Source: Acidobacteriota bacterium
GTDB lineage: Bacteria > Acidobacteriota > UBA6911
Length of the DNA: 35,374 nucleotides
Assembly: GCA_016933615.1 (NCBI GenBank)
Contig: JAFGAO010000182.1
Span: 1-35,374 of the forward strand
Direction of reading: 5' to 3'
How positions within the stretch are numbered: the stretch's first letter is position 1; the number at the start of each line of letters is the position of its first letter. Below are positions 28,240 to 34,356 of the stretch, one piece after another. Under the pieces are notes generated by a model, which was not told the origin of the DNA, ran no database searches, and saw nothing but the letters and a program-made list of their open reading frames with translations. The position numbers and the translations under genes are program-made.

Positions 28240-28851
28240 TTAATTTTCCATCTCCCTTTTCAGCCAGGCTTTTGCCATGTTCCAGGCACGTTTTACGGAT
28301 ATTGCGGAAAGATTCAGGGCCTGGGCCGTTTCCTCAACCGTGAGCCCGCCGAAAAAGCGAAGTTCCACGACCCGCGCCAGCCGGGAATCCTGCCTCTCGA
28401 GCCGTTGCATTGCCTCGTCCAGCGACAGCAGATCGATCGACTGTTCTCCGCCGGATGCGATATCATCCGTGTAACTAATCCGAGCCCGGGATCCGCCCCG
28501 CTTGCCGGCAGCCCTGGCTCTGGCCTTTTCAACCAGGATTTCCCTCATGGCACGGGCCGCGATTGCGCAAAAATGGGCCCGGTTGCGCCACGCGCGCGCC
28601 TTTTCTTTTTTCAGTCTCAGGTAGGCCTCGTTCACCAGCGCGGTCGCCTGCAAAGTCTGCATTCCGCGCCTTTCCCTCGCCATGTAGCCGCGCGCCAGCC
28701 TCCGGAGATCTTCATAGGCTTCCGGCATTATCTTCGAAAGATGCAGGGCGGAAGCATTCGCATCTTTTCCGGAAAGTACCGAAATTTCGATTCCTTTTGT
28801 CATGACGTTTCCGGACGGTATTCTAAACCGGAAAGCCTCCCCGGTATCCAT
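28240..28851 (-). CDS. ECF-type sigma factor (TIGR02999-like); start may be 28803
   Basis: LRRLARGYMARERRGMQTLQATALVNEAYLRL...NRAHFCAIAARAMREILVEKARARAAGKRGG; region 4 VVELRFFGGLTVEETAQALNLSAISVKRAWNMAKAWLKRE. Confidence 0.92.
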   Translation of the reverse strand: MDTGEAFRFRIPSGNVMTKGIEISVLSGKDANASALHLSKIMPEAYEDLRRLARGYMARERRGMQTLQATALVNEAYLRLKKEKARAWRNRAHFCAIAARAMREILVEKARARAAGKRGGSRARISYTDDIASGGEQSIDLLSLDEAMQRLERQDSRLARVVELRFFGGLTVEETAQALNLSAISVKRAWNMAKAWLKREMEN

Positions 28852-28974
28852 AGAAAAAAGATATCTTCCAAACCGCTTTGTGATACTCTGGCTTCATCAT
28901 GCGGTCCGCAGCGGATGAACAGCACGCATCAGGAGAACCCGTTCTAAAAAAGTAAATTCGATTCTCTCCATGCC

Positions 28975-31647
28975 ATGAAACTTTTTAAGACCCCAAAATC
29001 CGCCTTCATACTTCTTGCAATCCTGTGTGCGCTCCTCTTCTATGGAGCCGTCTCCCGGTTGCCGTCCGTAGACTCCGAGCAATTCGAATACAGGATTGAA
29101 GCGCCGGATCAGGCCTGGGTGACGGAAACCCTCGCCGCAATGACGCTCCGGGAAAAAATCGGCCAGCTGATTCATGTGAGAGTACGGGGGAATTTCCTCA
29201 ATCAAAAAGATGAAAGGTTCCGGGAGCTCGAGGAGGAAATAGTGCGATACCATGTCGGCGGCTTTGTGCTTTTTGCCGGCAACATTTATGAATCGGCCCT
29301 TCTTCTCAACGAACTTCAGTCCCGCTCCAAATTGCCGCTGCTGGTTTCGGCCGACTTTGAAAACGGCGCCTCGTTCCGAATCGCGGACACCACCTCGTTC
29401 CCATGGAACATGGCGGTGGGAGCAACAGGGTCCGAAGATTTTGCGCACCGGCAGGGGCTGATTACGGCCCGGGAAGCCAGGGCCCTCGGCGTCCACTGGC
29501 TTTTTGCCCCCGTGGTCGACGTCAACAACAATCCGGATAATCCCGTCATCAATATCCGCTCCTACGGCGAGGATCCGCGGCTGGTGGCCCGGATGGGGTC
29601 CGCTTACATCCGGGGCGCCCGCGAGGGCGGGGCCCTGACGACGGCCAAACATTTTCCCGGGCACGGGGATACGGCAACCGACACCCATGTCGGCCTGGCG
29701 GTGGTGCCGTCGAATCTCGAACGGCTGCTCGCCGTAGAACTGGTGCCTTTTAAAAGTGCAATCGAAGCGGGGGTCGATGCCGTGATGACGGCCCATGTCG
29801 CCGTTCCCGAATTGACCGAAGAAGCTTCCGTACCCGCAACTCTTTCCAGGGAAATTCTAACGGATCTTCTGCGCGGAACGCTTCTGTTTGACGGTATCGT
29901 CGTGACCGACGCACTGGAAATGGGTGGTATAAGGAATAAATACTGGACGGGCCTGGCCGCAGTCGGCGCCATCCAGGCGGGAGCGGATGCCGTGCTGCTT
30001 CCCACGAACGTCTCCGCCGCCGTCAACGGAATCGAGCGCGCCGTCGAGATGGGAGTTATCCCGGTCAAACGGATCGATGCATCGGTCGCAAAAATTCTCC
30101 GGGCAAAAAGCAGCCTGGGGCTGCATCGCGAAAGAACGGTTTCCATCGACCGACTCAGGGAAACAGTCTCCTCTCCTGAAAACCTGGCGTTCGCTCAGGA
30201 AATCGCCGATCGATCCATAACGGCGGTCAAAAACGACGATCGTCTCCTCCCCGTTGATCCCACAGCCAACCCGAAGATATTCAGCCTGGCGCTAGACTCC
30301 GGCTTGGCAACGAATCCGGGCGAAATCTTTCAGTCGGGTATGCGCGAGGTCTATCCTTCCCTTGTCGCCGAGTGGGCCAATGCCCGCGTATCCGAGGATC
30401 AGATCGACAGAATCCTGAGATACGCAAGGAATTCCGACCTGACCGTCTGCGCCACCTTTGCGCGCGTGAGTTCCGGCAGCAACAGCATCTCCATTCCAAA
30501 GGAGCAGCAGACGATAGTAGAAAAGCTCCTGAAAACGGGGAAGCCGTTCGTGTGGATCGCTTTTGGAAATCCCTATGCACTCGAGCGTTTCCCGAAAGCC
30601 GGAACCTACCTGTGCACCTTCAGCTATTCGGACGTATCCCAGCGGGCAGCGGTCAAAGCCGTCTCGGGGGCGATTCCCGTTGCGGGCAGGATGCCGGTTT
30701 CCATCCCCGAACATGCCGCTGTGGGCGACGGACTGGAGATTCCCAGGTTGGAAATGGCTCTGAAACCGCTGCCGAATGAAATAGCAAATTCCTTAAGTGA
30801 TACATTAGATGATATAAGACAAATTCTATTCAGTTATATTAAATCCGGAATGTATTCCGACGTTCAACTCGTCGCCGGATATAAGGGATCCATCATACTG
30901 GATATCGACTACCATGAAGATTTACCTCCCTTCTATCCCGAAAATAATGGTTCAGGAATACGGCTGCCTTTGTCGAACGTTTGGGGAAGCGGCAGTTTCG
31001 GAACAATTTTTACAGCAATGCTGGCAACCGAATCCGGAGAGCTTCTCCTGGATGCCCCAGTGCAGGATTACCTTCCGGAGCAGCGGGAGACCGACCTCGG
31101 CAAAATCCCCGTTTACGACCTGCTGGCCGATATCGGTGGAGAGAGCCAAACAGCGCCCGGGCAAAAAATATCCAATCGCATCCTGATAGATGAGATCGTG
31201 GACCGCGCATCCGGTTCGACCGAACGGATGATGGCTGGACTCCCTGGAGAGTTGGCGCCAAAAGTTACAGGCTTATGGAAAAGTTCATATCTTGATGATG
31301 ATGTTGCCATATTCTCTCAACTGCTGCTCAATAGCGGCATCTACAATCACCGACGCATCTTCAAACCCGACACGATAAAAGTGTTCACAAGGCCCCGCAG
31401 AGGTACTACAAAGGCGCTGGGGTGGATGAAACCCGACAAAAGCGATTGGACGGGGCGCCTTTTTTCCGGTGGATCATTCGGGTCGATGGACGACTTGGGC
31501 CGGTTCATCTGGATCGATCCTGAAAAACGGCTCTTTATTGTTTTGGAGTTATTTGCAGATCAACTGGAAAAATCCGCAATTGAAGCAGCCTATGAAAAAA
31601 TCGCGCAATCGATTACGGATGCTATCAAAAACGACAACGCAAAGTAG
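28975..31647 (+). CDS. GH3 (NagZ-like beta-N-acetylhexosaminidase type) fused to C-terminal serine-hydrolase/beta-lactamase-like domain, signal-anchored
   Basis: TLREKIGQLIHV; KHFPGHGDTATDTH; GIVVTDALEMGGI; GH3_C-like region to ~residue 590; then LLLDAPVQDYLPE and IWIDPEKRLFIVLELF beta-lactamase-fold landmarks. Confidence 0.88.
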   Translation: MKLFKTPKSAFILLAILCALLFYGAVSRLPSVDSEQFEYRIEAPDQAWVTETLAAMTLREKIGQLIHVRVRGNFLNQKDERFRELEEEIVRYHVGGFVLFAGNIYESALLLNELQSRSKLPLLVSADFENGASFRIADTTSFPWNMAVGATGSEDFAHRQGLITAREARALGVHWLFAPVVDVNNNPDNPVINIRSYGEDPRLVARMGSAYIRGAREGGALTTAKHFPGHGDTATDTHVGLAVVPSNLERLLAVELVPFKSAIEAGVDAVMTAHVAVPELTEEASVPATLSREILTDLLRGTLLFDGIVVTDALEMGGIRNKYWTGLAAVGAIQAGADAVLLPTNVSAAVNGIERAVEMGVIPVKRIDASVAKILRAKSSLGLHRERTVSIDRLRETVSSPENLAFAQEIADRSITAVKNDDRLLPVDPTANPKIFSLALDSGLATNPGEIFQSGMREVYPSLVAEWANARVSEDQIDRILRYARNSDLTVCATFARVSSGSNSISIPKEQQTIVEKLLKTGKPFVWIAFGNPYALERFPKAGTYLCTFSYSDVSQRAAVKAVSGAIPVAGRMPVSIPEHAAVGDGLEIPRLEMALKPLPNEIANSLSDTLDDIRQILFSYIKSGMYSDVQLVAGYKGSIILDIDYHEDLPPFYPENNGSGIRLPLSNVWGSGSFGTIFTAMLATESGELLLDAPVQDYLPEQRETDLGKIPVYDLLADIGGESQTAPGQKISNRILIDEIVDRASGSTERMMAGLPGELAPKVTGLWKSSYLDDDVAIFSQLLLNSGIYNHRRIFKPDTIKVFTRPRRGTTKALGWMKPDKSDWTGRLFSGGSFGSMDDLGRFIWIDPEKRLFIVLELFADQLEKSAIEAAYEKIAQSITDAIKNDNAK

Positions 31648-31818: not shown

Positions 31819-34356
31819 TCACAGGCTGGCTACTTTCAATGCCAGATCCCTGGCTATGTCAGCAGGATCCATACCGGATTTGTAACTCACTGCCGTACCA
31901 ATATTTACCGTTACGGTCCCGGGACGTGGGAACTTTTTGCCCGCTTTCTTCAAGGCATACAGCCCGTCGATGCGCACGGGCACCACAGCAACGTTGAGGT
32001 TCGTAGCCAGCAGCCCGATCCCGGCCTGAAAAGGCTGCAGTTTCCCGTCACGGGTGCGGCCCCCTTCGGGGAATACCAGGACCGAATATCCGCGGTCCAA
32101 ACTCTCCCCCGCAAAGTTGAAGCTGCCCCGGAACCCGGATTTCTGGGGCAGGGGAAACACGTTGAACAGGGCTGTCACCAGTCCATATTCGATAATCGAT
32201 AACCAGCGTTTCCAGAATCGCGTGTCGGGGTCGGGATGCCTCATTTCCTGCAGAAGCTCCCCACGCATGGCCACTGCCAGGCGATGCCGGAAACGGGGCG
32301 GCAGAGCGGCCAGAACAAACGCGGCGTCCGCCCGGGTGATGTGGTTCGAGACAAACAGAAAGGGGGCCCGCAATCCATCCAGGCGTTCCCTGCCACGAAC
32401 AAGCGGCCGGGCCAACAGTGAAATTGCCGGAAATGTCAGCAGATAGAATGTAAAATTTCTCAGAAGGGCCACAGGCTTGCGCTGGGTCCATCGCGGATAT
32501 CCGTAGTCCGGAACTGCCGACGAGGGACTTTGCAGCATCGCTTCCAAATCCCCGACAGTGCTCGCCTCCGTAAAAGAGGATTCGTTCAAATCCATCTGAA
32601 ACCTGTCTTCCAGGGCGCCCAGCAGCTGGACCCTTTCAATCGAACTCAAATCGAGGTCCGAAGACAGACGGCTGTCCGGCTGCAGCGTTTCAATTCTTCT
32701 ACCCGTTACCTGCCGTATGAGTTCGGCAAGAATGCCGCCGTAAGGTTTTCCCTCCGATGATTTTTGCGCAGCTTCCCGCAGTTTTGAAGCGGCGAAATCC
32801 CTGATTATCCCCAATTGAGGTTTTCGTGTGGGAGTCCGGGGGAAATCCCCGTCCGGCCAGACATACCAGTGGCGGATATGCTGGTAATCGGACAGCGATT
32901 CATTCACACGCCGTATGACGGGCTGCGGCTGCAGTTTTGTGTCGCGCAACAGGAGCACGGCACAAACCTCCGGGTTTCCCTGCCTCTCGATCCCCGCGAC
33001 GACACAGTCCCTTACCTCCGGCTGCCGCAGGAGAGCCGCTTCCAAATCTTCCGGGTAGATATTCAGGCCTTCGGCGGTGACGATGACGTTTTTCCGGCGC
33101 CCCTTGAAATGCAGATTTCCCTCGTCATCCAAAACTCCGAGGTCGCCGGTGGCAAACCAGCCGTCCCTATCCCTTACCGGAGTGGTCTCCTCTCCGCGCA
33201 AATACCCGTCCGCGACGCTCTCCCCGCGCACCAGGATCTCGCCGTCGGGCGCCAGCCTGATCTCGCGACCCGGAAGCGCTTTGCCGATTGTTCCGCGGCT
33301 TATCTTCAGGGGATGATTCAGGCTGACCATGGAGCTTGTTTCCGTAAGGCCGTAGCCCTGGACCAATGCGAAGCCTAGCCTTCCCCAAAACTTTTCCGTC
33401 TCTTCATCGAGCCTTGCGCCCCCGCAGACGATGGCCCAGAATTTCCATCCGAATTCCCGGTGGAGGCGGCGGAAAATCCACCACCGCCTCAGAAAATGCC
33501 TGTTTCCGGCCTTTTCGAAACGCCTTTGAAACCGCGGCAACGCACCTTCGGACTCCAGATCCCATTCCACTTTATCCCTGAGGGCCTGAAGAATTTTGGG
33601 CACCGCCACCAGCACCGATACGCGCTCCCTGCGAATCGCCCGCAGGATATCCGCGGGCCTGAGTGAGTTCTCGAAAATGACAGTCCCTCCGAAGATCCGG
33701 GGTATGAACAGACCCAGATATTGCCCGAAGACATGGCTGAGCGGCAGCAGATTCAGAAAGCGCAGCGGATGCACGATCCTTTCGTATTTCAGGTACTTGT
33801 TGATTTCCTTTTCCAGCGGATCGAGATTGGACAGGATGTTTTTATGAGACAGGACGACGCCTTTGGGATCGTCGGTTGTTCCGGATGTAAAGACTATTTC
33901 GACAGCGTCCCCTGGCCTGACGCTCGGCATTGCCAGAGGCGCCCCGGAACGGGCTTGGAGAATTTCCTGGAGATTTTCCAGCGGTACCTTCGGTATGCCC
34001 GGACCGGGCGGCGGCATACTGTCCGGGCAGACGCACAGCCGGGCATTCACCTGGCGGTAGACCCGGGACGCGAATTCCCGGGAGGCGGTCCGGTCCATCG
34101 GAACCAGGGTTGCGCCGCGCAGAACCGATCCGAAGAAGGCAACGGCCCACTCGGCGCAGTTTTCGCCCCAAAGGAAGACGCGATCTCCCCGGTGGACGTC
34201 CCGGGCCTCCAATTCCCGCGCAAACCGCCGGGCTGAATCCGCAACCTGGCGGTAAGACCAGCGCTGCATCCTGTAGCCGCGCCTTTGAACAAACGCCGTA
34301 TCGTCTCCATACCTGAAAAAATCTTCAATGATAAGGGAAAGCGTCCGTTCGCTCAT
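31819..34356 (-). CDS. AMP-dependent acyl ligase - acyl carrier domain - PlsC-type acyltransferase fusion
   Basis: VEIVFTSGTTDDPKGVVLSH, GYGLTETSSMVS, FATGDLG; carrier SDLDLSSIERVQLLGALED; acyltransferase NHITRAD (HX4D) and FPEGGRTRDGKLQPFQAG. Confidence 0.92.
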   Translation of the reverse strand: MSERTLSLIIEDFFRYGDDTAFVQRRGYRMQRWSYRQVADSARRFARELEARDVHRGDRVFLWGENCAEWAVAFFGSVLRGATLVPMDRTASREFASRVYRQVNARLCVCPDSMPPPGPGIPKVPLENLQEILQARSGAPLAMPSVRPGDAVEIVFTSGTTDDPKGVVLSHKNILSNLDPLEKEINKYLKYERIVHPLRFLNLLPLSHVFGQYLGLFIPRIFGGTVIFENSLRPADILRAIRRERVSVLVAVPKILQALRDKVEWDLESEGALPRFQRRFEKAGNRHFLRRWWIFRRLHREFGWKFWAIVCGGARLDEETEKFWGRLGFALVQGYGLTETSSMVSLNHPLKISRGTIGKALPGREIRLAPDGEILVRGESVADGYLRGEETTPVRDRDGWFATGDLGVLDDEGNLHFKGRRKNVIVTAEGLNIYPEDLEAALLRQPEVRDCVVAGIERQGNPEVCAVLLLRDTKLQPQPVIRRVNESLSDYQHIRHWYVWPDGDFPRTPTRKPQLGIIRDFAASKLREAAQKSSEGKPYGGILAELIRQVTGRRIETLQPDSRLSSDLDLSSIERVQLLGALEDRFQMDLNESSFTEASTVGDLEAMLQSPSSAVPDYGYPRWTQRKPVALLRNFTFYLLTFPAISLLARPLVRGRERLDGLRAPFLFVSNHITRADAAFVLAALPPRFRHRLAVAMRGELLQEMRHPDPDTRFWKRWLSIIEYGLVTALFNVFPLPQKSGFRGSFNFAGESLDRGYSVLVFPEGGRTRDGKLQPFQAGIGLLATNLNVAVVPVRIDGLYALKKAGKKFPRPGTVTVNIGTAVSYKSGMDPADIARDLALKVASL

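Follow-up and report, generated by a model that had tools for sequence, protein, structure and literature searches.

An 890-residue protein encoded in the window, by which we mean the whole 35,374-nucleotide stretch of DNA analysed here, is probably an exported NagZ-type GH3 enzyme fused to a serine-hydrolase partner that was inactivated once and has since been kept mainly for folding or packing, with a separate hydrolase covering the missing chemistry. As read from the encoded motifs, it is strongly supported that the active-site motifs of the GH3 half are intact and that the serine-hydrolase-fold domain is catalytically dead. The GH3–serine hydrolase fusion is already known, and the version with a dead half is a variant of that architecture.

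Domain organisation and the GH3 half

The gene occupies positions 28975–31647 of the + strand and its reading frame is unbroken along the full length. A hydrophobic segment at the N-terminus (residues ~9–27, 28999–29055), read from the translation, may be a signal or a membrane anchor, and it is the basis on which the protein is predicted to be exported. It is followed by the GH3 N-terminal TIM-barrel domain (residues 57–376, 29143–30102; PF00933, 300.7 bits), the GH3 C-terminal domain (residues 418–582, 30226–30720; PF01915, 41 bits) and a degenerate class C beta-lactamase/PBP-like domain (residues 606–890, ~30790–31644) recognised by PF00144, AlphaFold2 and Foldseek. The match to PF00144 is weak, with 27.6 bits for the domain alone and 23.4 bits within the whole protein against a cut-off of 27. 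According to Pfam, the order GH3_N, GH3_C, PF00144 on one chain is the architecture of RmNag3 (see below). Several NCBIfam GH3 models matched the GH3 part, all below cut-off, the beta-N-acetylhexosaminidase model coming nearest (156 bits, cut-off 207); for the C-terminus the nearest model was PBP4B (NF002968), at 32.6 bits and far under its cut-off.

Both motifs of the GH3 half are intact, as the original prediction had claimed. The NagZ-type Asp-His motif (KHFPGHGDTATDTH, 29647–29688) contains KHFPGHGDT and conforms to the KHFPGHG...D-x-H pattern of NagZ-type GH3 enzymes, with its D and H invariant across the clade of dead fusions described below; the motif of the GH3 nucleophile Asp, VTDALEM (29902–29922), is likewise invariant in the clade. 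The best reading is that the protein is a NagZ-type beta-N-acetylglucosaminidase related to RmNag3, a specificity predicted from motif and homology.

The C-terminal domain lacks the serine-hydrolase motifs

Alignment with intact fusions located all three former catalytic sites, and the losses originally claimed at each of them were confirmed. The SxxK position, ASVSK or ASLTK in intact fusions, falls around N-V-W-G-S-G in the window protein; the former site reads GSGSFG (30985–31002, residue 671) without a Lys, and there is no Lys anywhere between domain residues 38 and 109. The former YSD/YxN site reads QKISNRI (31162–31182; KISN at residue 731, nucleotide 31165), and the Tyr and Asp of the intact YSD align to a gap beside KISN. 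Where intact fusions have GHTGFTG, the window protein has GSMDDLG, and the site reads SGGSFGSMDD (31465–31494, residue 831). A fourth lesion, absent from the original prediction, is the deletion of the lid segment (GEVHDENAxxxGGVAGHAGLF in intact relatives) at 31243–31302, which explains why the domain measures ~290 residues as against ~360 in intact fusions. Two parts of the core are retained: GIYNHRR (31336–31356), whose G, Y and RR are invariant in the dead clade, and the fold-core strand WIDP (31510–31521), whose W, D and P are. Judged by its sequence, the C-terminal domain is almost certainly a pseudoenzyme.

The AlphaFold2 model of the window domain, computed with 35 relatives, reached a pLDDT of 83.5 and a pTM of 0.83, with low confidence at residues 654–669; in it the helix after the former SxxK site starts at S674 and contains no Lys. 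The divergent domain from genome G007 gave a pLDDT of 92.2 and a pTM of 0.90. Foldseek matched the window domain to EstG, carboxylesterases and others with a probability of 1.00 and E ~1e-11, as well as to 4ivi and 5tgf; the kinds of protein matched at probability 1.00 were family VIII carboxylesterases, 6-aminohexanoate-dimer hydrolase, DD-carboxypeptidase-like proteins and AmpC. The G007 model gave TM scores of up to 0.81. AlphaFold2 and Foldseek agree for the window protein and for G007, and the predicted structures show that the dead domain keeps the class C beta-lactamase/PBP-like fold (PF00144) in two divergent members, as had been claimed for the window protein.

A single loss in the ancestor of the genus

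Relatives were searched for in the class (38 genomes), the family (15) and the genus (10), plus named genomes; the relatives are Acidobacteriota MAGs, and sampling was MAG-based throughout. The dead version is present in eight genomes of the genus (G000, G001, G003, G004 and G006–G009). The G002 copy is interrupted by a contig end. In G005, which is nested within the dead clade on the GH3 tree, the protein stops after GH3, and no remnant of the serine-hydrolase domain was found downstream of it. A ninth dead copy lies on contig C623 of G014 (L177), where its surroundings share synteny with members of the genus; given this synteny and a contamination rating of 8% for G014, the copy may stem from contamination or transfer or be a second copy. 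G014 also holds an intact fusion, on contig C450 (L067).

The alignment of the nine dead copies shows the same pattern of loss throughout. The SxxK Lys and the YSD/YxN Tyr are present in none of them, the lid core (GxVHDE) is gapped in all, and HTGFTG is absent from all, with the H retained in five, the T in none and the next G in one. The Ser of SxxK is retained in only a third of the members, edge pieces of the lesion regions survive in some, and in G003 the domain is shortened further. None of the nine copies of the domain contains a stop or frameshift. Since G008, an independent MAG whose protein is 75% identical overall, shares the lesions of the window protein, and since Lys, Tyr and HTGFTG are missing from 9/9 members, the lesions are beyond chance or error, and the original claim of a pseudoenzyme is upheld across the clade. 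A frameshift, assembly error or chimera is excluded by the intact reading frame and by the motif losses shared with the independent MAG and seven further copies.

Outside the clade, the motifs are kept in all fusions examined from Acidobacteriota, Bacteroidota, Balneolota and Ignavibacteriota wherever the region is covered (the G010 contig ends before HTG, the L089 contig ends after SxxK, and for L136 no domain is aligned), in agreement with the original statement that such fusions normally carry SxxK. On a tree built from the GH3 columns only, by a quick method without bootstrap, the dead and lost copies form one side of a branch, requiring one change (SH-aLRT 99). The loss of the active site is thus a single event in the ancestor of this genus of uncultured Acidobacteriota, and this single ancestral origin excludes recent decay within one genome.

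Selection on the dead domain

We estimated pN/pS for the dead domain in near pairs (Nei-Gojobori) and obtained 0.27 [0.20–0.36] for the window genome and G008, and 0.29 [0.21–0.43] for G006 and G004, while G007 gave 0.46 with G006 and 0.45 with G004; all values are below 1, with upper confidence limits of ≤0.60. When the tree topology was held to that of GH3, the branch lengths of the C-terminal domain stood to those of GH3 in a ratio of 0.86 in intact lineages (summed); for the dead clade the ratio was 5.1 on its stem and 2.62 among its members, so that relative to GH3 the dead domain evolves ~3x faster than intact domains do. Taken together, these values indicate a burst of change at the loss, followed by weakened but real constraint: the dead domain is shown to be under purifying but relaxed selection. 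Because it still folds and is still under this weakened selection, it is a genuine pseudoenzyme domain and not a sequencing error.

The window lineage itself is slower. The ratio on its own tip is 1.27, and in the pair with G008 the dN of the dead domain relative to GH3-N is ~1.5, nearly as slow as in active domains, which is compatible with a regained function of the dead domain. The positions kept in 9/9 members are mostly fold core (G788, R794, W817, G836, G842, W846, D848 and P849 in the numbering of the window protein). A comparison of fusions with stand-alone proteins for interface residues gave a weak signal, with W893, D924 and N862 of the G012 fusion being kept.

Pathway context and a stand-alone serine hydrolase

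The genome carrying the window also encodes, on contig C236, a stand-alone serine hydrolase with intact motifs (FDVSSLTKV, YSDVN and GYGHTGFTG), the sole other PF00144 protein found in this 82% complete genome. Its orthologs are present in 14 of the 15 family genomes, among them all ten of the genus (in G001 as two pieces). Stand-alone hydrolases also occur in genomes with intact fusions, and hence the gene did not arise as a replacement; as it predates the loss, it permits replacement without proving it. The C236 hydrolase can supply the chemistry lost from the fusion.

Although 14 of the 15 family genomes have NamZ, the MurNAc-6P etherase MurQ (TIGR00274) exceeds its cut-off in G014 only, which makes it uninformative as a pathway marker for the genus. 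Other Acidobacteriota encode triple fusions of GH3, PF00144 and NamZ (L048 in G051, L085:1218-5780 and L103:4290-8939; 1009+ to 1550 residues), apparently uniting NagZ, AmiE-like and NamZ steps on one chain, and by association these tie the PF00144 domain to the muropeptide pathway. In L050 and L051 (frames of 895 and 785 residues) GH3 is absent, and a PF00144 serine hydrolase is followed by a NamZ-like C-terminal part on the same chain.

The neighbours of the GH3 gene in the window are genes for a Ser/Thr kinase and an ECF sigma factor, the latter separated from it by 124 bases only (28851–28975). Convergent with it on the − strand (31819–34356) lies a gene for a single 845-residue protein combining acyl-AMP ligase, acyl carrier protein and acyltransferase. 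Among the genes next to the GH3 gene, none for peptidoglycan recycling was seen. A DinB-like gene lies upstream of the GH3 gene in G008, G009, G001, G003, G006, G007 and L177, and an asparaginase-like gene in some. At seven loci (L097, L098, L099, L102, L104, L105 and L106) residues of a query of one GH3 unit were matched over ~3.4–3.7 kb, a span suggesting that Pyrinomonadaceae and allied Acidobacteriota carry GH3 genes in tandem.

Possible roles of the dead domain

The acceleration of ~3x, the loss in G005 and the conservation of mostly fold-core positions favour a tolerated or structural pseudo-domain. In the scheme that we consider probable, a C-terminal PBP4B/AmiE-like serine-hydrolase domain would have been inactivated once in the ancestor of the genus. 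The GH3 half would still strip GlcNAc from muropeptides, the C-terminal domain would perform no chemistry, and its former reaction may be carried out by the stand-alone hydrolase on C236. The domain would owe its persistence chiefly to its part in the folding or packing of GH3, through a presumed contact, and as a structural pseudoenzyme domain it would remain losable, as in G005.

A role for the dead domain in regulating GH3, or in binding peptidoglycan or stem peptides, with the emptied cleft serving as binding site, could explain why the domain persists throughout the genus at a pN/pS well below 1, as well as the confident predicted folds of the window and G007 domains, and the near-normal relative rate on the window tip and in the pair with G008. 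However, such a role, also proposed originally, found no positive evidence: the conserved positions (G, W, WxDP) include no clade-specific motif that stands out, the lid, which makes up much of the substrate cleft, has been lost, the rate is relaxed overall and G005 dispenses with the domain. We regard it as unlikely. A specific form of it, in which the G000/G008 lineage has re-used the lid-less pseudo-amidase to bind peptide stems or act allosterically, so that muropeptides are positioned or gated when a periplasmic NagZ-type enzyme cuts the sugar, seems to us a little more doubtful. We give slightly less credence again to a functionless relic, tolerated, constrained only against misfolding and heading for loss; the accelerated evolution, the further shortening in G003 and the complete loss in G005 are what such decay would produce, but the low pN/pS of the near pairs, the nine copies free of stops and frameshifts and the good confidence with which AlphaFold2 folds the domain argue against it. 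That the domain is still a hydrolase acting through other residues is very improbable. Ser 672 and Ser 674 do remain near the former SxxK helix, but at the SxxK, YSD and HTG sites the window protein has no Lys, Tyr or His except K731, which is not aligned with the Tyr, and the clade-wide absence of the SxxK Lys and the YSD Tyr, with the SxxK Ser kept in a third, speaks against it. An intact Ser-Lys-Tyr triad elsewhere in the sequence was looked for and not found, and the motif and alignment check yielded no conserved Lys, Tyr or His candidates for a moved triad.

Within this one protein family the plain GH3, the intact bifunctional fusion, the dead fusion and the fusion with its domain lost form an ordered series, so that one can test directly what becomes of a fused enzyme once one of its halves has died. 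The family also calls for caution in annotation, as domain matches alone would mislabel such proteins ‘beta-lactamase’.

Comparison with known systems

In the literature searched we came across no GH3–serine hydrolase fusion whose hydrolase half is described as catalytically dead. RmNag3 of Rhodothermus marinus (Rmar_0925) is described as the sole characterised enzyme of the GH3-beta-lactamase architecture, with a signal peptide, GH3 domain 1, domain 2 and a C-terminal beta-lactamase domain; it is a beta-N-acetylglucosaminidase acting on pNP-beta-GlcNAc, chitobiose and chitopentaose (PMC6987092). Its beta-lactamase domain is neither modelled nor, apparently, assayed there (PMC6987092). Compared on the basis of this published description, its domain order is like that of the window protein. 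The Balneolota and Bacteroidota fusions examined keep their catalytic motifs, unlike the window protein. Other Acidobacteriota fusions (such as G012, G014 C450, L078 and L082) are whole-length relatives, ~34–55% identical to the window protein, yet their ASxxK, YSDLG, HTGFTG and lid are all intact, and the G014 C450 protein scores 240 bits with PF00144 as against 27.6. With PBP4B (NF002968), the PF00144 family, EstG and the family VIII carboxylesterases the window domain has in common the fold and a weak profile match, whereas all the catalytic motifs and most of the lid are missing from it.

In B. subtilis, NagZ (GH3) and AmiE, a MurNAc-L-Ala amidase, are encoded by separate genes adjoining ybbC and act successively on released muropeptides (PMC5061867). 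The authors of the RmNag3 study liken its architecture to B. subtilis NagZ plus AmiE (PMC6987092), and this parallel, together with the association with NagZ-type GH3 and NamZ, suggests that the intact PF00144 domain is AmiE-like. The fusions, the GH3-PF00144-NamZ triple fusions of other Acidobacteriota included, would follow the same order, removal of GlcNAc and then of the peptide, on a single chain. By this parallel and that of the triple fusions, an intact fusion would carry out two successive steps; unlike the B. subtilis pair, which has both activities, the window protein, with its second activity predicted to be dead, would carry out the first only.
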